In this document: piece after piece, positions 24,935 to 34,008 of the stretch
Numbering within the stretch: the stretch's first letter is position 1
How the letters are laid out: every line of letters starts with the position of its first letter
Assembly: GCA_022564115.1 (NCBI GenBank)
Contig: JADFMB010000005.1
Span: 1-34,008 of the forward strand
DNA: 34,008 bases
Source of the DNA: Pseudomonadota bacterium
GTDB taxonomy: Bacteria > Pseudomonadota > Alphaproteobacteria > Rhodospirillales > Casp-alpha2
Direction: 5' to 3'
Position numbers and translations under genes: made by a program
Notes under the pieces: generated by a model
What the model saw: only the letters and a program-made list of their open reading frames with translations
Databases searched by the model: none
What the model was told of the DNA's origin: nothing

Positions 24935-25698
24935 ACACGGATGAGATCAAGCTTTCGGCGGTTATCCCCGTGCATAACGAGGAGGCGCAGCTTGCCGAAT
25001 GCCTGGAGTGTCTAGAGTTCGCCGATGAGATCGTCGTGCTTTTGGACAAGTGCACCGACGGCTCAGACGGTATCGCCCGGAAATTCACCGGCCGCGTCAT
25101 CGAAGGCGACTGGGAAATCGAGGGCGAGCGCCGGAACGCCGCTATCGAAGCCTGCCGGGGGGAGTGGATTTTCGAAATCGATGCCGATGAACGGGTTCCC
25201 GAGGCCCTGGGCAGGGAAATCCGTGACGTCATCGGCAAGACGGATTGCGACATTTTCAACATTCCCGTCGACAATTACGTCGGAAGGAGCCTGATCCGTT
25301 ATGGCTGGGGCGGGCTGTTCGGCAAAAACGGCTATCCGGGCCTGTTCCGGAAAGGCGTCAAGGTTTGGGGCCGGGAGAGGGCGCATCCGCATTTGCATGT
25401 AACCGGGCGCCAGGGGCCGGACTTGAAAACACCCATCGCCCATTACGTTGACGAAGGCATCTCGGACATGCTGATGCGCCTCGACCGTTATACGGATTAC
25501 CGCGCCCGGGATCTTGTCGAGAAGGGCGAGACAGGCTCGTTCCCCAACATGGTGCGTAAGATCTTTTCACGGTTCTGGAAGTGCTACGTGCTTAGACGGG
25601 GCTACCGGGAAAACGGCTATGGCTTCGTCATTGCGCTCTGCGCGGCGCTTTATCCAGTGCTGTCGCACCTAAAAGCGGTTTTGGAATTGAAGGAGTAA
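24931..25698 (+). CDS. Glycosyltransferase family 2, WaaE/KdtX-like (copy 1)
   Basis: A 255-residue inverting GT2 enzyme. LSAVIPVHNEEAQLAECLE opens the GT-A fold, DEIVVLLDKCTDGS follows, and the metal-binding DxD is in FEIDADERV. The C-terminal RKIFSRFWKCYVLRRGYRENGYGF and LYPVLSHLKA segments are typical of the WaaE-like LPS core glucosyltransferase group. The GTG start overlaps the GT9 stop by 4 bases. The next gene is a close paralogue, so this is a tandem duplication. Sugar and acceptor are unknown. Confidence 0.9.
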   Translation: MNTDEIKLSAVIPVHNEEAQLAECLECLEFADEIVVLLDKCTDGSDGIARKFTGRVIEGDWEIEGERRNAAIEACRGEWIFEIDADERVPEALGREIRDVIGKTDCDIFNIPVDNYVGRSLIRYGWGGLFGKNGYPGLFRKGVKVWGRERAHPHLHVTGRQGPDLKTPIAHYVDEGISDMLMRLDRYTDYRARDLVEKGETGSFPNMVRKIFSRFWKCYVLRRGYRENGYGFVIALCAALYPVLSHLKAVLELKE

Positions 25699-25707
25699 TG
25701 GCTGGCC

Positions 25708-26472
25708 ATGGACGACATTCGGCTTTCGGCGGTCATCTCCGTCCATAACGAGGAAGCGCAACTGGCCGATTGCCTGGAAGGGCTTATCTTCGCCGACGAA
25801 ATCGTCGTGCTGTTGGACAAGTGCACCGATCGCTCGGGCGAAATCGCCGCCACCTTCACCGACCGCGTCATCGAAGGCGCTTGGGAATTCGAAGGGGAGC
25901 GCCGCAACGCCGGCATCGAGGCCTGCCGGGGGCAATGGATTTTCGAAATCGACGCCGACGAAAGGGTGTCCGAAGACCTGGGCCGGGAAATCAGGGAAAC
26001 CGTCCAATCGACGGCCCGCGACTGGCATGAAATCCTGGTCGATAACTATATCGGCGGCAAATTGGTGCGTTGGGGCTGGGGCGCGTCCTATGGCAAGGCC
26101 GCCTATCCGGGTTTGTTCAAAAAGGGCGTCAAGACGTGGGGGAATGCCCGCGTCCACCCGCCGTTGACGTGGGCCCAAGGCGCCGGCAAGGGTCCGCGGT
26201 TAACGAACCGCATCCGCCATCTGGTGGACCGGAATATTTCCGACATGATCCGCCGGCTCGACAGCTATTCGACGGCCCGGGCCAAGGATTTGCGGGAATC
26301 CGGGAATATCGGCTCCATGGCCTCGAACGTGCGCCGCATTTTTTCGCGTTTCTTCAAGTGCTATGTCCTCAGAAAGGGCTACCGCGAAGGCGGCTACGGC
26401 TTTCTGATCGCGCTGTTCGCCGGGCTTTATCCGGTGTTGTCGCACCTGAAGGCGAAGCTGGAGGAAGATTAG
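25708..26472 (+). CDS. Glycosyltransferase family 2, WaaE/KdtX-like (copy 2)
   Basis: A 254-residue paralogue of the preceding gene; the two align over their full length with few gaps. The opening (LSAVISVHNEEAQLADCLEGL), the DxD region (FEIDADERV) and the C-terminal (RRIFSRFFKCYVLRKGYREGGYGF) are shared, while the acceptor-side middle (WHEILVDNYIGGKLVRWGWGASYGKAAYPGLFKKG, then PPLTWAQGAGKG) differs. This pattern suggests that the copies add to different acceptors. It is 9 bp after copy 1 and 3 bp before the GT4 gene. Confidence 0.9.
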   Translation: MDDIRLSAVISVHNEEAQLADCLEGLIFADEIVVLLDKCTDRSGEIAATFTDRVIEGAWEFEGERRNAGIEACRGQWIFEIDADERVSEDLGREIRETVQSTARDWHEILVDNYIGGKLVRWGWGASYGKAAYPGLFKKGVKTWGNARVHPPLTWAQGAGKGPRLTNRIRHLVDRNISDMIRRLDSYSTARAKDLRESGNIGSMASNVRRIFSRFFKCYVLRKGYREGGYGFLIALFAGLYPVLSHLKAKLEED

Positions 26473-26475
26473 GGA

Positions 26476-27513
26476 ATGGCCCGCATCGTCCTCGCCGACG
26501 ACGGCATCGAATTCGACGGCCGCACCCCCGAGGAACGCCCATTGGGCGGCGCCGAGTCCTCGGTGGCGGCGTTGGTGGGAGAACTGGCGGCCCGCGGCCA
26601 TGACGTCCGGGTGATGAACAAATGCAAGGCGCCCCTGGACCATCGGGGCGTCGCCTGGAGGCCCATCGACGGCGGCGACTGGCCTGAAAGCGCCGATCTC
26701 TATATCGCCAACCGGGGCGACAGGCTGTTGACCGGAATGCCCCGGGCGCGGCGCACGGTGTTCTGGATTCACAATCCCGCCCGGTACCTGCTCAAGTGGC
26801 GCTATCTTTCGAAGCTCTGGCGGCTCCGCCCGGCCATCGTCTTCATCGGCGATTATCATGCCACCACGTACCCGAAGTGGGCGCCCGACGGCGGCCGGGT
26901 GGTCATCCCCTATGGCATTCCCGAGGATTTCCGCCAAGCCGGCCCCTTGACCCAACCGCCGCCGCCCAGGGCCATTTTCACCTCCAATCCGTTGCGATCC
27001 CTGGACTGGCTGCTGGAACTATGGGCCGAAAGCATCCAGCCCCGTGTCGCCGGCGCCGAATTGCACGTGTTCGCCGGCGCCGCCACCTACGGCAGCGTCG
27101 GGGCGGACAAGGAAGCGGCCATGGAGAAGGTATTGGACCGGGCCCGGGCGCTGGAAGGCCAGGGGGTAAAACTTCGCGGCCCGGTTCCCAAGGCACGGTT
27201 GATACAGGAATTGCGCCAATCCCGGGCCATGCTTTACCGTGGCGACCTCAATGAAACCTTTTGCCTGGCCGTCGGCGAGGCCCAGGCGATGGGAGTCCCG
27301 GCCGTGGTAGAGAAACTTGGCTCCGTCGGCGAGCGCGTGATTGATGGCGAAACAGGCTTCGTTGCCGCCGGCGCCGCCGCCTTTGCCGAGCACGCAAGGC
27401 GGCTTCTGACCGATGACGACCTGTGGCGGGCGCAGCATTTGGCGGCGATCGAAAAACAACGCCAATGGCGCTGGGCCGACGCGGCGGCGGCGTTCGAGAA
27501 GCTGATACCCTAG
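26476..27513 (+). CDS. Glycosyltransferase family 4
   Basis: A 345-residue GT-B enzyme. The N-terminus has GGAESSVAALVGELAARGHDVRV, the classic GT4 acceptor-domain start, and the C-terminal domain has ETFCLAVGEAQAMGVPAVVEKLGSVGERVIDGETGFV, which carries the E-x7-E donor-binding pattern. Substrates are unknown; context implies assembly of LPS or another surface glycan. The spacing of 3 bp from the GT2 gene indicates one transcript. Confidence 0.9.
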   Translation: MARIVLADDGIEFDGRTPEERPLGGAESSVAALVGELAARGHDVRVMNKCKAPLDHRGVAWRPIDGGDWPESADLYIANRGDRLLTGMPRARRTVFWIHNPARYLLKWRYLSKLWRLRPAIVFIGDYHATTYPKWAPDGGRVVIPYGIPEDFRQAGPLTQPPPPRAIFTSNPLRSLDWLLELWAESIQPRVAGAELHVFAGAATYGSVGADKEAAMEKVLDRARALEGQGVKLRGPVPKARLIQELRQSRAMLYRGDLNETFCLAVGEAQAMGVPAVVEKLGSVGERVIDGETGFVAAGAAAFAEHARRLLTDDDLWRAQHLAAIEKQRQWRWADAAAAFEKLIP

Positions 27514-27555
27514 GGGATCGAATGGGGTCCATATGCTAGATTTTATCCACTGACC

Positions 27556-28584
27556 ATGCGTGTTCTTCAGGTAATGGCGGGGGCGGAATTCGGGGGCGCC
27601 GAGGCGTTTTTCACCCGTTTGGTGTTGGCGCTCAAGCGCGCCGGACTGGATCAACGCGTCGTCATCCGCGGCCATCCGGCGCGGGCCAAGACCCTCAGGG
27701 CCGGCGGCATCGAGCCGGTGGAATTGCCCTTCGGCGGTCTTTTGGACTGGCGCACCCCCCGGGCCCTGAAACGCGAGATCAAGGACTATCGCCCCGACGT
27801 GGTGCTGACCTGGATGAACCGGGCCACCCGAATGTGCCCGCAGGGAGATTTCGTTCACGTCGGCAGGCTGGGCGGGTATTACGACCTCAAGTATTACCAC
27901 AACTGCGACCACTTGATCGCCAACACTAAGGACATTCGGAATTATCTGGTGGAACAGGGGTGGGAGGCGGAAAAGGCCCATTATCTTCCCAATTTCGTGT
28001 TCCAGGAAAAGGCCGAACCGGTCCCGCGCCGCCAGTTCTTTACGCCCGATGGCGCCTCGTTGGTTCTGGGACTGGGGCGGTTGCACCGAAACAAGGCCTT
28101 CGATGTGCTTCTGGAAGCGGTATCCCGGGTGCCCAGCGTTTATTTGTGGATCGCCGGCGATGGGCCGCTGAAAGAAGAGCTCGAAAAACAGGCCGAAAAC
28201 CTGGCCGTAAAACCCCGCACACGTTTCCTGGGCTGGCGGCAGGATACGGCGGCGTTATTGGCCGCCGCCGATCTTTTCGTCTGTCCGTCACGGCACGAAC
28301 CTCTGGGAAACGTGGTCATCGAGGCCTGGGCCCAAGGCGTACCGGTCATCGCCGCCGACAGTTTCGGCCCCGGCACCCTGATCGAGCACCGCGAAACCGG
28401 TATCCTGGTGCCCGTGGACGACGCGGCGACCATGGGCCGCGCCATCCGCAACCTGCTCGGGGACGACACCCTGCGCGAGCACATCGCCGAAAAAGGCCAT
28501 CAGGCCTACAAGGAAGCCTTCACCGAAAAGATCGTCATCAAGCAGTACATGGATTTCCTGCAAAGCATCCAGGAGACAGCCTGA
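27556..28584 (+). CDS. Glycosyltransferase family 4
   Basis: A 342-residue GT-B enzyme of the GT4 family. It starts MRVLQVMAGAEFGGAEAFFTRLVLAL, has VLGLGRLHRNKAFDVLLEAV in the linker to the second domain, and the donor-site segment CPSRHEPLGNVVIEAWAQGVPVIAADSFGPGTLIEHRETGIL with E-x7-E. Its stop abuts the ATG of the amidotransferase gene (TGAATG), so the two are almost certainly co-translated. It is the last glycosyltransferase of the operon. Confidence 0.92.
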   Translation: MRVLQVMAGAEFGGAEAFFTRLVLALKRAGLDQRVVIRGHPARAKTLRAGGIEPVELPFGGLLDWRTPRALKREIKDYRPDVVLTWMNRATRMCPQGDFVHVGRLGGYYDLKYYHNCDHLIANTKDIRNYLVEQGWEAEKAHYLPNFVFQEKAEPVPRRQFFTPDGASLVLGLGRLHRNKAFDVLLEAVSRVPSVYLWIAGDGPLKEELEKQAENLAVKPRTRFLGWRQDTAALLAAADLFVCPSRHEPLGNVVIEAWAQGVPVIAADSFGPGTLIEHRETGILVPVDDAATMGRAIRNLLGDDTLREHIAEKGHQAYKEAFTEKIVIKQYMDFLQSIQETA

Positions 28585-30480
28585 ATGTGCGGGATCGCCG
28601 GCATCATGAACCGCTCGGGCGCTGCCCCCGACGACGCGGTATTACAGGCCCTTTCCGCCGCCCTGGCCCACAGGGGTCCGGACGGGCGGGGCCGAACAAT
28701 TTCCGGGGGCACCGGCCTGGCACACACCCGCCTTGCCATCATCGACCTGGAAACCGGCGACCAGCCGCTTTTCGCCTCCCAAAATACTGGAAAAGAAGAG
28801 GCGGGGACGGGTGGAACCCGGACAGGGACTAAACAAGAGGCGGGGACGGGCCTCGGGGGAGCGGGGGTGTCCCCCGGGACCCCCAGGGCCCGGACAGGGA
28901 CTGAAAAAGCCGCCCTGATCGCCAACGGTGAAATCTATAACTACGTCGAATTGAAACTCGACATGGGCCGGGTCGATTTCCGGACGGGGTCCGATTGCGA
29001 ACCGCCGTTGCATCTTTACCTTCGCCACGGACTCGATTTTGCCCGCCATTTGCGCGGCATGTACGCCATCGCCATTTACGACCCGGCCGAGGATTCATTG
29101 ATATTGGCTCGCGATCCGTTCGGCATCAAGCCGCTTTATTACGCCGAAACGGCCGCAGGGCTGGCTTTCGCTTCGGAGCCCCAGGCCCTTTTCCGGGCCG
29201 GGCTTGTGAAACCGGTCCTCAGGCCCGAGGCCCGGAACGAGCTTTTGCAGCTTCAGTTCACCACCGGCTCGGGAACGGTTTTCGAAGGCGTGCACAGGCT
29301 TTTGCCCGGCGAGACCGCGCAGGTCCGCGGCGGGCGCATTACCGACCGGCTCAGCCGCAAGGCCCTGCCCGATGGCGGCCCCATCGAGGTTTCACAATCG
29401 GCGGCGTTGCGGCGGCTTGACGAGGTGCTGTCGGACAGCGTCAACATCCACCAACGTTCGGACGTCCCTTACGGCATGTTTCTTTCGGGCGGCATCGATT
29501 CCTCGGCCCTGTTGGCGATGATGTCGCGCCTGAACGAACAGCCGGTGCGGGCTTTCACCGCCGGTTTTTCAGGCACGGACGTTGCCGATGAACGCAGGCA
29601 CGCCCGCGCCGTCGCCGAGGCCGCCGGGGCCGAACATACGGAAGTGGAATTTTCCGAAGCCGACTTCTGGGCGCTGTTGCCCCAAATCGCCACCGTCATG
29701 GACGACCCCGCCGCCGACTACGCGGCGCTGCCGACCTACAAGCTGGCGGCCGCGGCCAAGGAGGCCGGACTGAAGGTGGTTTTGACCGGCGAGGGCGGCG
29801 ACGAGATGTTCGGCGGCTACGGACGTTACCGCCGCGTGCGCCGTGCACGGCTGCTTGGCGGGCGTCCGATGCGCGAAAGGGGCGTTTTTGACGGGCTCGG
29901 CGTCCTTCGCGACGAGGCCGCCGGTTGGCGCGACGGCTTTGCAAAATCGGAGGAAGAAGCGGCCCGGGGCGGGCGGACGAAGCTGCAAGCGGCGCAGGCC
30001 GCCGATTGCGCCGACTGGCTGCCCCATGACCTGTTGGCCAAGCTCGACCGTTGCTTGATGGCCCATGGGGTCGAGGGCCGGGTGCCGTTCCTCGACCTCA
30101 AGGTCGCCGATTTCGCCCTTCGCCTGCCGGACAGGCTGAAAGTACGCCGGGGCCAGGGCAAATGGCTGCTCAGGAAGTGGTTGCAAACGGCCCTGCCCGC
30201 CGCCCGGCCCTTTGCCCGGAAACGCGGCTTCACGGTGCCGGTGGGTGAATGGATCGGCGGCCGGGGCCGGGAACTGGGCCCCTTGGTGGCATCGCAGCCG
30301 GGGATCAAGGAAATCTGCCTCCCCCATGCCGTCGAGGATCTGTTCGGCGCCGCCGGTCCGGGGGCGGCCCGGCGGGCCGGGCAGGCGGCCTGGGTGCTGT
30401 TATTCTACGCCCTTTGGCATCGCCGCCACATCGAAGGCGTGGAGGAGCAAGGCGGCGTCTTCGATGTGCTGGGGGGGTAA
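28585..30480 (+). CDS. asnB: Asparagine synthetase-type glutamine amidotransferase with repeat insertion and exchanged 3' end
   Basis: A 631-residue class II amidotransferase/ATP-dependent synthetase. The N-terminal glutaminase has the nucleophile Cys2 (MCGIAGI), HRGPDGRG (29-36) and NGEIYNY (114-120). The synthetase domain has the ATP-binding SGGIDSS (301-307) and LTGEGGDEMFGGYGRYRR. Because it ends a glycosyltransferase operon, it may amidate a surface sugar or precursor rather than make free asparagine. Two oddities: about 42 residues (67-108) between PLFASQ and AALIANGEIYN are coded by two copies of a dispersed repeat; and the last 37 codons occur again downstream of an inserted nuclease gene, so the present C-terminus (AWVLLFYALW...DVLGG) may be a replacement of the original. 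Confidence 0.93.
   Translation: MCGIAGIMNRSGAAPDDAVLQALSAALAHRGPDGRGRTISGGTGLAHTRLAIIDLETGDQPLFASQNTGKEEAGTGGTRTGTKQEAGTGLGGAGVSPGTPRARTGTEKAALIANGEIYNYVELKLDMGRVDFRTGSDCEPPLHLYLRHGLDFARHLRGMYAIAIYDPAEDSLILARDPFGIKPLYYAETAAGLAFASEPQALFRAGLVKPVLRPEARNELLQLQFTTGSGTVFEGVHRLLPGETAQVRGGRITDRLSRKALPDGGPIEVSQSAALRRLDEVLSDSVNIHQRSDVPYGMFLSGGIDSSALLAMMSRLNEQPVRAFTAGFSGTDVADERRHARAVAEAAGAEHTEVEFSEADFWALLPQIATVMDDPAADYAALPTYKLAAAAKEAGLKVVLTGEGGDEMFGGYGRYRRVRRARLLGGRPMRERGVFDGLGVLRDEAAGWRDGFAKSEEEAARGGRTKLQAAQAADCADWLPHDLLAKLDRCLMAHGVEGRVPFLDLKVADFALRLPDRLKVRRGQGKWLLRKWLQTALPAARPFARKRGFTVPVGEWIGGRGRELGPLVASQPGIKEICLPHAVEDLFGAAGPGAARRAGQAAWVLLFYALWHRRHIEGVEEQGGVFDVLGG
28795..28902 (+). repeat. Two tandem copies of the GAGGCGGGGACGG/CGGACAGGGAC repeat in asnB
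   Basis: Copy A (28795-28830) and copy B (28834-28902) share GAGGCGGGGACGGG at the left and CCCGGACAGGGACT at the right. Copy B has a longer loop with a CGGGGG/CCCCCG hairpin. Both lengths keep the asnB frame open. The same unit occurs in glyQ, in the methyltransferase gene, and as a right half in ppdK. Confidence 0.9.
30367..30473 (+). repeat. Upstream copy of the 107-bp asnB 3'-end duplication
   Basis: Identical to 31194-31300 except for six substitutions at 30390, 30395, 30397, 30402, 30406 and 30408. This copy is in frame with asnB and codes for its C-terminus. Confidence 0.97.
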
Positions 30481-30490
30481 TATTTCTAAA

Positions 30491-30539
30491 ATATGTTCAC
30501 GTTTTGGGAATTCTTGAACATATTCCGACGATATGTTCA
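30491..30539. repeat. Three 9-bp half-sites ATATGTTCA
   Basis: ATATGTTCA at 30491-30499, its reverse complement at 30515-30523, and ATATGTTCA again at 30531-30539. The last two form a perfect inverted repeat with a 7-base spacer. They lie just after asnB, in the AT-rich inserted sequence, and could be an operator for the nuclease gene or a terminator for asnB. Confidence 0.6.
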
Positions 30540-30560
30540 TAGGGTGCGCATATGGAATAA

Positions 30561-30677
30561 AGGGAATAAAGAGGACACCATACTAATTAACTTTCCCTCG
30601 TCCCCTTAAACCGGTCCGGCGCGGATCGAAGCCGAGGACGCGGCAAAAGGTTGATTAGTATGGTGACCCTTTTTTAG
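30561..30677. mobile_element. Small palindromic element with CACCATACTAAT ends (MITE/REP-like)
   Basis: CACCATACTAATTAA (30576-30590) and TTGATTAGTATGGTG (30651-30665) are inverted repeats with one mismatch. They are flanked by AAAGAGGA on the left and a CCCTTTTTT run on the right, enclosing 60 bases. From memory, similar GGGGACACCATACT ends occur in dispersed repeats linked to IS200-like (RAYT) transposases. It codes for nothing. Confidence 0.6.
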
Positions 30678-30710
30678 TAATCACCGGAGTACGAACTAGG
30701 AAAGATCGGT

Positions 30711-31106
30711 ATGGAAAATTTTCGAAGTCAATTTACCGAGGCGCGAAACCGCGCACGCCTCGATGACCTGATGTTAGGCAAAGGGTTTGTTCCCTATCAC
30801 CCTTCGTTGGATACGGGAGTTGATGTCATTTACTACCGTGAGGACGGTGACAAGATACTTAAAGTGCAACTGAAGAGCCGGGTGACTATAGATAAAAAGT
30901 ACATCGGTCGAGGCATCGTAGTCGCCTTCCCGACTGACACCGATTGGTGCATTTATGACCACGATGCGTTAGTAAATCATGCGGTCGGCGACCACATTAA
31001 GCCATCAACCTTAAGCTGGTCTATAAAAGGTAGCTGGACATGGAGTACTACGCCAGCTTGGATGCACCAATATTTTGAGGCCAACAACCTGGCTTCAACG
31101 CTGTAG
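30711..31106 (+). CDS. PD-(D/E)XK-type nuclease-like protein, candidate homing endonuclease
   Basis: A 131-residue, AT-rich gene inside the asnB 3' duplication. The N-terminal helix carries E10 (FTEARNRARLDDLML), then a beta-hairpin with D38 (TGVDVIYY) and Q53-x-K55 (KVQLKSR). The arrangement E...D...QxK matches, as I recall it, the catalytic set of I-Ssp6803I, a homing endonuclease of about 150 residues with the PD-(D/E)XK restriction fold. The rest (RGIVVAFPTDTDWCIYDHDAL) fits the later strands of this fold. A ribosome site AGGAAAG precedes the ATG. Location between duplicated gene ends supports a homing role. The alternative is a small restriction or toxin-like nuclease unrelated to mobility. 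Codon use differs from the core genes. Confidence 0.7.
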   Translation: MENFRSQFTEARNRARLDDLMLGKGFVPYHPSLDTGVDVIYYREDGDKILKVQLKSRVTIDKKYIGRGIVVAFPTDTDWCIYDHDALVNHAVGDHIKPSTLSWSIKGSWTWSTTPAWMHQYFEANNLASTL

Positions 31107-31193
31107 TGCAAATAGACTTTTTTCGCCTGTTCTAATTCTCACCTCTTTTTAGATCCGCACATAACTGACTGCATATTTTGGGCTGAAAACCAA

Positions 31194-31312
31194 GCCCGGC
31201 GGGCCGGGCAGGCGGCTTGGGGGTTGTTGTTCCATGCCCTTTGGCATCGCCGCCACATCGAAGGCGTGGAGGAGCAAGGCGGCGTCTTCGATGTGCTGGG
31301 AGAAAAAGGATA
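31194..31312 (+). pseudogene. asnB: Displaced 3' end of asnB (orphan tail)
   Basis: This stretch codes in one frame for ARRAGQAAWGLLFHALW, continues identically to the asnB tail to DVLG, then ends EKG and a TAG stop at 31310-31312. It has no start or upstream domain. It differs from the asnB C-terminus at V/G, Y/H and the last residues. It is best read as the original end of asnB pushed downstream by the insertion; the opposite order is possible. Confidence 0.8.
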
Positions 31313-31388
31313 GGGGATCGCGGTGTTCCCGATGGCGTTCCGCCCCCCCCCTCTTAAACCGGAGCCGATAAAACGTGTCCTAAAACTG

Positions 31389-31404
31389 GCCTTTAAAGAG
31401 GCCG
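31389..31404 (-). terminator. Short hairpin after the first secreted-protein gene
   Basis: GGCCTTT and AGAGGCC-type arms form a compact hairpin next to the stop codon at 31406. On the minus strand it is followed by AGTTTTAGG. Modest terminator. Confidence 0.5.
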
Positions 31405-31405
31405 C

Positions 31406-31723
31406 TCAGGTCTTGGTGCCGGAAATCATCTCCGGCTTCGGCAACTCTTCCCAGTCCTGGCCGGCGGCGATCAGGCAGCTCGTGCCGTTCGGCTGGGTGA
31501 TGACCAAGGTCCAGGTTCCCTTGGCCGAGGCATAGACCTCGATGACCCCGCCGCCCGCGGTAACGCCCATTGAAACGGGGGTCTCGGCGTAGGATTTCTT
31601 CAAGTTGTCGGAAACCGCGCGGTGGGTGCCGCAAACCGGCTGCGCGGATGCCGCCGGAGCAAGGAAGCTTAAACCGATAATCAAAACCAGAGCGTTCAAT
31701 ATGGCCGTCTTATAGCGTCTCAT
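31406..31723 (-). CDS. Small secreted protein with conserved Cys pair (paralogue A)
   Basis: A 105-residue exported protein of unknown function. A signal peptide (about 1-27, ending ASA) is followed by a mature domain of about 78 residues. C31 and C83 are in the same places as in the neighbouring paralogue and probably form a disulfide. The shared pattern is PVSMG..., VIEVYAS...TWTLVITQPNGTSCLIAAG..W. It lies downstream of paralogue B on the same strand, with 224 bp between. Confidence 0.85.
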   Translation of the reverse strand: MRRYKTAILNALVLIIGLSFLAPAASAQPVCGTHRAVSDNLKKSYAETPVSMGVTAGGGVIEVYASAKGTWTLVITQPNGTSCLIAAGQDWEELPKPEMISGTKT

Positions 31724-31947
31724 GACGTGGCCCTCTCACTGTGAAAAACAGCCCTCAATGGGACACTTTCAAATTTCGCTACGGTTATTGGCTCCGTATT
31801 TGACAGTCGCTAAAATCTCACTTTTCATTTGAAATCAAAGCATTAATGCCATTTCGGCATTGGTGAATCGTAGTTTAATTTCATTAACGATAAATGAAGG
31901 GAGAGCGAGCTTTTCATTTACCCGTCGGTTCCGGTCCGCAACCGGGA
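31724..31947. other. AT-rich spacer between the two secreted-protein genes
   Basis: 224 bp, markedly AT-rich, without a supported reading frame. It has a perfect AATGCC/GGCATT hairpin (31845-31861) and probably holds the promoter of the 31406-31723 gene, but no clear -35/-10 pair was found. Confidence 0.5.
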
Positions 31948-32274
31948 TTACAGTTTTAGATCCTGGGCCTTGACGACGACGTTCCGCCAGTAATTGCCGG
32001 CAATAAGCAGGCACGAGACTCCGTTGGGCGCGGTCAGGATGATGGTCCAGGTATCGTCGGGAGACTTCAACACCTCGACGACGCGGCCATCGTGTGAAAG
32101 ACCGAGGGAAACGGGCTTTTCCGAGAAATTTCCATCCAGGGCCGACAACATATCGCTACGGTTGTCGCACAGTTGCGGTATTGTCTGGGCGTGGGCGGCG
32201 GGCGCGGTCAGGGCAGCCAGGAATAGGCCAAACAGGACGCTGCAATTGAGAGCGATTTTGTTAAACGGGCGCAT
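31948..32274 (-). CDS. Small secreted protein with conserved Cys pair (paralogue B)
   Basis: A 108-residue paralogue of the adjacent secreted protein. The signal peptide is about 1-29 (ending AHA). C36 and C88 match C31 and C83 of paralogue A. The core PVSLGLSHDGRVVEVLKSPDDTWTIILTAPNGVSCLLIAG is conserved; the C-terminus (YWRNVVVKAQDLKL) differs. I know of similar unnamed proteins in alphaproteobacteria only as hypotheticals. Role in the periplasm or cell surface is unknown. Confidence 0.85.
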   Translation of the reverse strand: MRPFNKIALNCSVLFGLFLAALTAPAAHAQTIPQLCDNRSDMLSALDGNFSEKPVSLGLSHDGRVVEVLKSPDDTWTIILTAPNGVSCLLIAGNYWRNVVVKAQDLKL

Positions 32275-32580
32275 GCCTTAATTCCTTTCACTTTCAAACT
32301 TCTGTCCTTGGCAAATGGACAACCCCCGTACTCCGCTTCATTCAGGAAACCGATTTTTCCGATTTCCGGCAATTGTGACTGTATCAAGACTGTGTGTCGG
32401 GGTTTTTACCGTTGGGTTTCATTGTGTTTCGGCATGTTTCACCTTTGTTAACTTTGTCGGCTCGGCTTTTATGGCTTCGAAGCAGGAGAAACTTCGGGTT
32501 TCCAGGAAAAACGTTGACATTTCCTGATTGGCGGGGCGTTTTCGGGGCGTTCTTGGGGCGATGAAATCCATAGGAACGAA
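32275..32580. other. Divergent intergenic region upstream of pyrC
   Basis: About 305 bp without a gene, between the secreted-protein gene and pyrC. It contains a TTGACA hexamer at 32513-32518 with no good -10 partner, and the direct repeat GGGGCGTT (32535-32565, three near-copies) shortly before the pyrC ribosome site AGGAACG. Confidence 0.5.
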
Positions 32581-33651
32581 ATGACCGAAATCACCCTCCG
32601 GCGGCCCGACGATTGGCACCTGCACCTGCGCGACGGCGATATGCTGAAAGCCGTGCTGCCGTTCACCGTCCGCCAATTTTCCCGGGCCATCGTCATGCCC
32701 AACCTGGTGCCGCCGGTGAGGACCGCCGCCGAGGCCGAGGCCTACCGCGGGCGCATCGGGGCGGCGGTGCCGGAAGGGGCGGATTTCACCCCCCTGATGA
32801 CCTGCTATCTGGCCGACGACACCGACTCCGATGACCTCATCCGTGGCCACCAATCGGGGGCGTTCACGGCGGCCAAGCTCTATCCCGCCGGTGCCACCAC
32901 CCATTCCGCCGACGGGGTCACCGACATCGCCCGTATCGACGGGGTGCTGGGTCGGATGGAAGAAGCCGGCATGCCGCTGCTGGTCCACGGCGAAACCACG
33001 GATCCGGACGTCGACGTCTTCGACCGCGAGGCGGTGTTCATCGACAACACCCTGAAATCCATGATCGAGCGCTTTCCCGGCCTGAAGGTGGTGTTGGAGC
33101 ATGTGACCACCATCGAAGGCGTGGATTTCGTCCGGGCCGGGGGAGAAAACCTCGCCGCCACCATTACCGTCCATCACCTGATGATCAACCGGGGCGCCAT
33201 GTTCGAGGGCGGCATCCGGCCGCACCTGTACTGCCTGCCGGTGGCCAAGCGCGAACGCCACCGCCTGGCGCTCAGGAAGGCGGCGACCTCGGGCGAGGCG
33301 AAGTTCTTTCTCGGCACCGATTCCGCCCCGCACCCCGTCAGCGCCAAGGAAGCGGCCCGCGGCTGCGCCGGTATCTTTTCGGCGCCGGCGGCGCTCGAAC
33401 TCTACGCCCAGGTGTTCGACGACGAAGACGCCCTCGACAAGCTGGAAGCCTTCGCCTCCCTCAACGGCCCGGCCTTTTACGGGCTTGCCGTCAACGAAGG
33501 GACGTTGACCCTGAAAAAGCAGGAAGGGCGGGTGCCGGGCGACGTCCCGGTGGAAGGCGGCGAGGCGGTCAAGCCGTTCCATGCCGGCCAGACCCTTGCC
33601 TGGACCTTAGGTCATGAACTCATAAATGGAGACGACTGTGACGCGTGTTAA
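32581..33651 (+). CDS. pyrC: Dihydroorotase (class II), 3' end altered by a MITE
   Basis: Third step of pyrimidine synthesis: cyclises carbamoyl aspartate to dihydroorotate. The metal-binding HLHLRDG (H13, H15) and the carbamylated lysine in [13 protein letters not shown] (K99) are present, as are [25 protein letters not shown] and LGTDSAPHP. This is the short, E. coli-type class. Ribosome site AGGAACGAA precedes the ATG. The final 15 residues ([13 protein letters not shown]) come from an inserted mobile element; the family normally ends soon after the conserved W (LAW). Activity is probably kept, since the core is whole. Confidence 0.96.
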
Positions 33652-33878
33652 TTTGTTCACTGGCAAGGAGCTAGGAGGGAGTGATGCCGAAGCATCATGA
33701 CCGACGAGGGGACGATGCCCAGTGGACAAAAGAACCGCGCCCCAAAAGGGGTCGGCATAGGGCCCGTTTCGGTGCGTCATGCGCCCTCACCGGGGCTTTA
33801 GCCCCGCTTTCGCGCCCCTTCCTACCGAAACGGGCCCTCTGCCGATCACAGTTCGCCGCCATTTATGAGTTCATGACC
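33610..33878. mobile_element. 269-bp MITE with 20-bp terminal inverted repeats and TTA target duplication
   Basis: GGTCATGAACTCATAAATGG at 33610-33629 and its exact reverse complement at 33859-33878; similarity continues inward in imperfect form for about 15 bases more. The element is bounded by TTA (33607-33609 and 33879-33881), consistent with a 3-bp target duplication as made by some IS5-family elements. Inside, AGGGCCCGTTTCGGT and ACCGAAACGGGCCCT (about 33760-33774, 33825-33839) and CGGGGC/GCCCCG form nested hairpins. There is no transposase gene. It inserted into the 3' end of pyrC. Confidence 0.85.
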
Positions 33879-33920
33879 TTAAGTGCCCGGACTTGTCTTG
33901 GGTCGTTTCTTGGGGCGGCC

Positions 33921-34008
33921 TCAGCGTTTCGCGATCAACTTGAATAAGTCGGACATGCCTTCCTTGTCCTTGTCGATTTTGACCAGAAACTGAAGACCGA
34001 TATAGCCT
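33921..34008 (-). CDS. C-terminal end of an unidentified gene (runs off the window)
   Basis: The last 28 codons of a minus-strand gene: GYIGLQFLVKIDKDKEGMSDLFKLIAKR then a stop at 33921-33923. The balance of hydrophobic and charged residues looks like real protein. The IGLQF phrase recalls the end of PilZ-type domains, but this is weak. It converges with pyrC. Confidence 0.55.
   Translation of the reverse strand, partial: GYIGLQFLVKIDKDKEGMSDLFKLIAKR

Follow-up and report, generated by a model that had tools for sequence, protein, structure and literature searches.

Why should a housekeeping gene possess two 3' ends, and why should these ends differ at six positions that all fall within 19 nucleotides? 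The question is raised by the window, which is the whole 34,008-nt stretch of alphaproteobacterial DNA analysed here, and which contains an asnB-like gene whose end is found a second time behind an insert (Table 1). The asnB product matches TIGR01536 with 411 bits vs a cut-off of 267, and the two direct copies of the gene end, each of 107 nt, are 94% identical. The stop codon of the reading through copy 2 lies at 31313, and comparison with relatives places the native asnB end 827 nt downstream of where it would otherwise be. A sequence-only reading of the window had proposed that the resident copy was recoded at the target of an endonuclease so that the host gene is immune, or that recent gene conversion had homogenised the flanks. 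Our own preference, which is tentative and falls a little short of an even chance, is that the nuclease-bearing insert came with an imported asnB end that was later mostly converted to the native sequence.

Table 1. Features of the duplicated asnB end and its surroundings (positions in the window)
Feature	Position	Strand	Remarks and basis
asnB-like asparagine synthase (glutamine-hydrolysing) gene	28585-30480	+	631 aa, C-terminus FDVLGG-stop; PF00733, E 9e-85
Copy 1 of the asnB gene end, in use	30367-30473	+	
Core with all six copy 1/copy 2 differences	30390-30408	+	19 nt
Copy 1 terminus, final bases of the GG-stop end	30474-30480	+	End alignment with relatives
Insert	30474-31193	none	720 nt; overlaps the last asnB codons
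Palindromic repeat in the insert	30565-30673		About 105 nt; arms 30568-30594 and 30647-30673
PD-(D/E)xK-fold protein gene	30711-31106	+	131 aa; sole gene of the insert
Copy 2 of the asnB gene end, displaced native end	31194-31300	+	
Native C-terminus and stop (GEKG-stop) after copy 2	31301-31313	+	End alignment with relatives
Native downstream DNA	31314-31723		Contains minus-strand gene 31406-31723

The insert is a foreign piece of low G+C content, with 45.6% G+C vs 66.7% in asnB, and a comparison with nine congeners returned short matches only, the best of which (49 nt) lies within the palindromic repeat. This repeat has a second copy, 88% identical, elsewhere in the host genome (G000:C21:9648-9752) and looks like a REP or a small non-autonomous element. 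Operator-like words were seen by eye 5' of the nuclease gene (30490-30539), namely AATATGTTCA at 30490-30499, TGAACATATT at 30515-30524, and ATATGTTCA at 30531-30539; the latter occurs three times upstream of the gene, twice directly and once inverted, and the three copies resemble the operator array of a regulator. The host genome (G000) is a draft of 236 contigs and 85% completeness, and the duplication is known from this assembly alone. A draft of this kind might have joined the asnB ends of two strains in one contig, but the insert is coherent, low in G+C, and has an intact gene, and the downstream copy runs on into the correct native DNA. An assembly artefact is thus barely credible.

The gene asnB is present in 56 of 61 genomes, the host included, and the gene ends could be aligned for 29 of the 55 relatives. 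The nearest of these, G001, G002, and G008, share about 94% asnB DNA identity and 92% amino acid identity with the host. Their products end in GEKR-stop, GEKG-stop, and GDKG-stop, respectively, and the reading through copy 2 ends in GEKG-stop; in addition, the DNA 3' of copy 2 (31314-31723) is common to all three at 88-89% identity. Because the near genomes share its end type and its downstream DNA, copy 2 is, by this comparison, the displaced native end, and copy 1, which is in use, is the altered one. At 30395, 30397, and 30402 all three near genomes carry the base of copy 2, and at 30390, 30406, and 30408 they vary among themselves, so that copy 1 is novel at three of the differing sites, and the other three were variable already. 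The sequence-only reading had named an alignment of related asnB tails as the way to decide which copy is ancestral, and the alignment answers that the downstream copy is native and the copy in use changed. No duplicated asnB end was seen in the 29 aligned tails and up to 1.5 kb downstream of them, save a weak 32-nt match (L026), nor was a third copy found in the 85%-complete host genome, where there are three further short matches, the best of them within unrelated-looking coding sequence. Matches of asnB in most relatives start at residue 103-110, and those in G001, G002, and G008 start at residue 1; the N-terminal part of the gene also holds a repetitive stretch (28790-28920, EEAGTGGTRTGTKQEAGTG...). 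Elsewhere in the window, two adjacent genes at 24936-26472, which by eye look like glycosyltransferases, appear as diverged tandem duplicates (79% over 300 nt and 76% over 126 nt), and a 32-nt inverted repeat, 88% complementary and with its arms 217 nt apart, is located at 33604-33884, at the end of gene 32581-33651.

The differences between the copies (copy 1/copy 2) are 30390 C/T, 30395 T/G, 30397 C/T, 30402 A/G, 30406 T/C, and 30408 C/T. As had been described, identical stretches of 23 nt on the left and 65 nt on the right enclose these sites, and the six changes affect five codons, of which three are silent (GCC/GCT, CTG/TTG, and TTA/TTG) and two are replacements (GTG/GGG, V/G; and TAC/CAT, Y/H, with two changes). 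Six random changes among 107 positions would fall within 19 or fewer with an exact probability of 4.3e-4, which becomes 1.3e-4, 8.5e-4, or 4.2e-4 when sites are weighted by their variability in 3, 9, or 29 relatives, for a statistic applied to a pattern that was chosen for its clustered look. Random drift, against which the sequence-only reading had argued, is disfavoured with and without weighting (P 1e-4 to 9e-4). Independent point mutation after an exact duplication has in its favour that 6 differences in 107 are modest and that three of the sites are polymorphic among near species; however, it is contradicted by this clustering. Selection acts on the copy that holds the changes, and the displaced copy has the near-relative base wherever polarity can be assigned (three sites); the probability of independent mutation is negligible. 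A segment of asnB that is simply variable was also considered as a source of the pattern and was rejected: mean pairwise differences among the nine nearest relatives are 0.29 in the left 23 nt, 0.25 in the 19-nt core, and 0.24 in the right 65 nt, and among the three nearest they are 0.15, 0.11, and 0.05, so that the core is no more variable than the flanks taken together.

If the core of copy 1 is not native, where did it come from? Counted as mismatches to copy 1/copy 2 over the 19 nt, G004 (2/6), G007 (3/6), G006 (6/8), and G020 (5/6) are nearer copy 1, G003 (4/4), G005 (5/5), and G008 (3/3) are tied, and G001 (4/2) and G002 (5/1) are nearer copy 2. G004 is thus closest to the copy 1 core, with 2 mismatches in 19, followed by G007 and G008 with 3 each. 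By these counts, the core leans to two more distant congeners, G004 and G007, and the foreign signal rests mainly on these two because G003, G005, and G008 tie and G006 and G020 lean slightly. The terminus of copy 1 points the same way: GG-stop after VL is the end type of all five genomes from G003 to G007 (VLGG or VFGG) and of none of G001, G002, and G008, a likeness that amounts to two codons and was noticed post hoc. A donor for the core was not found among 316 other genomes of the order, none of which has an exact match to a 24-nt sequence around it; the only ones within two mismatches are G309 (one) and G060 (two), and G309 belongs to another family and differs from copy 1 in the rest of its gene end.

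The flanks give a different answer. The right 65 nt, in both copies, has 3-4 differences from the three near genomes and 14-21 from the six more distant ones. Moreover, at 30368, 30439, and 30446 the two copies share bases that are absent from G001, G002, and G008; none of the nine relatives has the host's base at 30368 or 30446, and at 30439 two distant relatives agree with the host. These shared bases mean that both flanks of both copies are the species' own, and because the copies share them, the flanks must have been converted or natively duplicated. The homogenised flanks that the sequence-only reading had envisaged are thus upheld, in either of these two forms. Taken together, these comparisons make a moderate case, suggesting that the core and the stop are remains of an imported end whose middle was overwritten from copy 2.

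The history that this suggests would run as follows. A low-G+C insert with a free-standing PD-(D/E)xK nuclease gene has entered the 3' end of asnB, and the break through which it came was probably cut by the nuclease that it encodes, in the manner of intronless homing. In the simplest history, it would have arrived carrying the asnB end of a more distant congener. The displaced native copy would then have overwritten most of the imported end by gene conversion, with the core and the stop remaining. Copy 1 would accordingly be a mosaic, native on the left, then with a non-native core of about 19 nt, native again for 65 nt, and finally with a non-native stop. As for why the core was kept, we lean towards conversion that stopped at the mismatch-dense stretch, rather than towards nuclease resistance.

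Native flanks are also what a long target duplication would produce, in which 107 nt of asnB were duplicated exactly and a patch was then acquired from another allele, or in which two conspecific alleles are preserved. Both flanks being native and identical speaks for this origin, as does the variability of three of the six sites among near relatives. For a direct repeat derived from the recipient's own target, native sequence is present on both sides of the core in each copy, but copy 1 has a non-native core. This origin requires an independent 19-nt import or a double-allele history, and it leaves the GG-stop end as a coincidence. These points make a long target duplication unlikely, though it is a serious contender, and the gene neighbourhoods of nuclease relatives, discussed below, bear on it as well.

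What kind of nuclease does the insert encode? The structure of the 131-aa protein was predicted with a mean pLDDT of 93.9 from an alignment with 52 of its 68 non-redundant relatives, some with shortened starts (four more, L065, L083, L121, and L146, had been left out for length). The archaeal Holliday-junction resolvase Hjc (2wcw_D) is the closest structure, with Z 9.7 over 101 residues, just ahead of I-Ssp6803I, a homing endonuclease (2ost_A; Z 9.6 over 108 of the 131 residues). SPARDA chains follow, with Z up to 8.8, and then restriction enzymes (Z at most 7.3, in a range below 8 that may reflect merely a common arrangement). Foldseek likewise retrieved an Hjc (E 9e-4) and I-Ssp6803I (E 0.03). 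Residues E10, D34, G36, D38, Q53, K55, R57, K63, Y64, F73, and H84 are invariant in the 53 aligned sequences, and E10, D38, Q53, and K55 are putative catalytic residues; the signature reads QxK instead of D/ExK (Q53 and K55), and a conserved acidic-x-K arrangement is found. The nuclease that had been supposed from the sequence is therefore well supported, on predicted structure, as one of PD-(D/E)xK fold.

Sequence searches place the protein in no described family. Pfam and NCBIfam gave no match at E up to 1, PADLOC gave none, and a sequence search of the PDB gave none that convinces (best E 0.036) and none with the family profile. The sole PHROGs match is at chance level (E 0.23) and was rejected as an identity. 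Membership in PDDEXK_5 (PF11645), which we take to be the family of I-Ssp6803I, was likewise rejected, as the 131-aa protein has no match at E up to 1 and the curated cut-off of 26.1 bits was not reached; one of the 53 aligned sequences matches at E 5e-4. Stray matches were also seen to DUF4365 and to NiFeSe_Hases (both at E 0.003, from one sequence of the 53 each) and to PDC-M02A of PADLOC (two sequences, best E 0.004). An intron-encoded nuclease was discarded too, with no Rfam intron at 30200-31500 up to E 1 and one chance match to another family.

To our knowledge, replacement of a gene end by a resistant one without an intron, intein, or transposase is known only from the WHO elements of yeasts. 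A bacterial counterpart would consist of a free-standing homing endonuclease of PD-(D/E)xK fold, with the native asnB end as its target, and of a carried gene end altered at the recognition site. Several observations agree with such recoding for immunity: the fold is close to that of a homing endonuclease, the altered copy is the copy in use, and selection against cutting would account for the core alone having escaped conversion; the layout is also that of the WHO elements, as far as these are described in excerpts of PMC7282813. The displaced copy speaks against it. Copy 2 retains the complete native core together with 23 nt on its left and 65 nt on its right, which would leave a recognition site within the core open to cutting. 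A nuclease that recognises only the core would be expected to cut copy 2, and the 107-nt repeats would then favour loss of the insert. Both ends would be immune only if the site starts at or before 30366, a position absent from copy 2, and reaches at least 30390, which is altered in copy 1, so that its length would be 25 bp or more. The recognition site of I-Ssp6803I is 23 bp, and a site of the required length is possible, being near the edge and not absurd. As a whole, recoding for immunity appears quite unlikely. The more specific proposal, in which a site of at least 25 bp covers 30366-30390, the native end was pushed downstream, and the swapped and the displaced end both escape cutting, is just as doubtful, all its parts being taken jointly.

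The earlier interpretation is thus retained in part: the nuclease-bearing insert, the altered copy being the one in use, and the homogenised flanks stand, and the recoding is weakened by three of the six differences lying at sites that vary in near relatives anyway. Titles and opening abstract lines of the literature on unorthodox homing, long target duplication, and free-standing homing endonucleases contained no bacterial element that we recognised as having this layout. If the immunity proposal were true, it would reveal a gene-drive-like route for a stand-alone nuclease gene in bacteria, independent of introns, inteins, and transposases. Should the passive reading be right, the locus would still be a clear case of insertion and gene conversion leaving a very short stretch of non-native sequence within a housekeeping gene.

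To see what the nuclease family does elsewhere, it is useful to consider its distribution. Relatives of the nuclease were found in none of the nine congeners or the 51 other relatives compared, in 6 other genomes among 317 of the order, and in 4 others among 385 of a class sample. Nine plasmids carry one at E up to 4e-7 (a tenth record has E 5). Scans of genome contigs and viral contigs with the single sequence returned none, and scans with a profile returned 89 in genome contigs, of which 80 were kept, and 8 in viral contigs. The gene context was compared in 110 stretches, comprising loci L038-L146 and the asnB locus, several of which overlap on the same contigs; both 2.5-kb flanks are available in 81, and one flank is shorter than 500 nt in 7. 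Direct repeats between the flanks occur in 12 of the 110 at E up to 1e-3 and reach at least 50 nt in four, which are L080, L083, L115, and the asnB locus; a translated repeat scan returned the same four and a weak L111. L115 (3788-6657) has a 382-nt direct repeat on both sides of the nuclease gene and an adjacent integron integrase (TIGR02249, 487 bits vs a cut-off of 265), L083 has an array of 80-90-nt repeats, and L080 has one of about 60-nt repeats. We read the repeats at these three loci as cassette arrays; no integrase like that of L115 was found in L083 or L080. A repeat recognisable as a gene end was seen in none of the 109 other stretches, and one such case in 110 speaks against recoding for immunity and, judging from these contexts, against the view that the family generally replaces gene tails.

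Restriction-type neighbours are more frequent. Three genes accompany the nuclease gene at L042. One encodes an MmeI-type methyltransferase, in which all five MmeI Pfam domains are present, another a DEAD-type helicase, and the third a T5orf172/MUG113 protein, whose annotation is GIY-YIG. Relatives of these three proteins, recognised by similarity to the L042 proteins only, occur together around the nuclease gene in 29 of the 110 stretches; one further stretch has relatives of two of them and three have one. This conserved set of methyltransferase, small nuclease, helicase, and T5orf172/MUG113 protein (L042:1138-7498 and 28 other stretches) looks like a restriction or defence operon of which the small nuclease is a regular member. 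Such neighbours favour a long target duplication. In work cited in PMC3031569, the insertion of restriction-modification systems is reported to create long target duplications of variable length. However, the insert at the asnB locus has one gene only and no methyltransferase.

In three stretches (L060:6001-7397, L066, and L038) the nuclease gene overlaps or abuts a gene for an XerC/D-like tyrosine recombinase, forming a two-gene unit. Seven of the 110 stretches have a gene or gene fragment of this one recombinase family, whose XerC/D-like assignment refers to L060, at most about 500 nt 3' of the nuclease gene. A restored gene end with the old end displaced is classical for integration by tyrosine recombinases, and this background and the seven stretches would favour an integration into the 3' end of asnB, with the repeats as attL and attR and a crossover in the left 23 nt. 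However, the recombinase family searched for was not found in 26001-34008 of the window or, at E up to 1e-10, in the 85%-complete host genome, the identity of 65 nt to the right of the core would be unexpected, and the seven recombinase-bearing loci show no convincing flanking repeats. Integration by such a recombinase is highly improbable. Judging from these neighbourhoods, the nuclease gene moves in a number of settings, and genes of restriction type are often near it.

Import of an asnB end followed by conversion is thus supported by the polarity of copy 2, the mismatch pattern of the core, the native flanks, the GG-stop end, the G+C content of the insert, and the nuclease fold. The same reading is weakened by the failure to find a donor core, by the tied relatives, by the GG-stop likeness being two codons long, and by the other loci of the nuclease family, which show no recognisable duplication of a gene end.

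How does the asnB locus compare with known systems? Hjc is of similar size to the 131-aa protein and resembles it in fold, but the two share 12% sequence identity and the asnB context contains no pointer to a resolvase role. I-Ssp6803I is also of similar size, with 14% identity; PMC1995217 places its gene within a tRNA-fMet group I intron, whereas no intron was found at the asnB locus (30200-31500). The free-standing homing endonucleases of T4-like phages share with this locus an intergenic nuclease gene that is expected to act on neighbouring DNA. They are, however, GIY-YIG or HNH enzymes whose cleavage sites lie at a distance of hundreds or thousands of bp, and a duplicated gene end is not among the features described in the excerpted text (PMC2988022). 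Insertions of restriction-modification systems, as cited in the excerpted PMC3031569, resemble the locus in direct repeats of about 100 nt that flank a nuclease-bearing insert, and differ in that the asnB repeats diverge in one dense patch and a methyltransferase is absent. The WHO elements of Torulaspora and Lachancea yeasts, as presented in excerpts of PMC7282813, place a nuclease behind a housekeeping gene with a substitute 3' end, and the substitute FBA1 end resists cleavage by experiment. They differ from the asnB locus in several ways (same excerpts of PMC7282813): their proteins are HO-related, by a LAGLIDADG comparison, and the asnB-locus protein is of PD-(D/E)xK fold; their displaced fragments begin shortly past the cleavage site, whereas the displaced asnB fragment holds the whole divergent core region; they form clusters, whereas the asnB locus has one element; and their cleavage and resistance are experimental, whereas the asnB locus is known from its sequence alone. 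Nevertheless, the order of parts is the same in both, as far as the excerpts describe it: a host gene with a substitute 3' end, a nuclease gene, and the displaced native 3' end.
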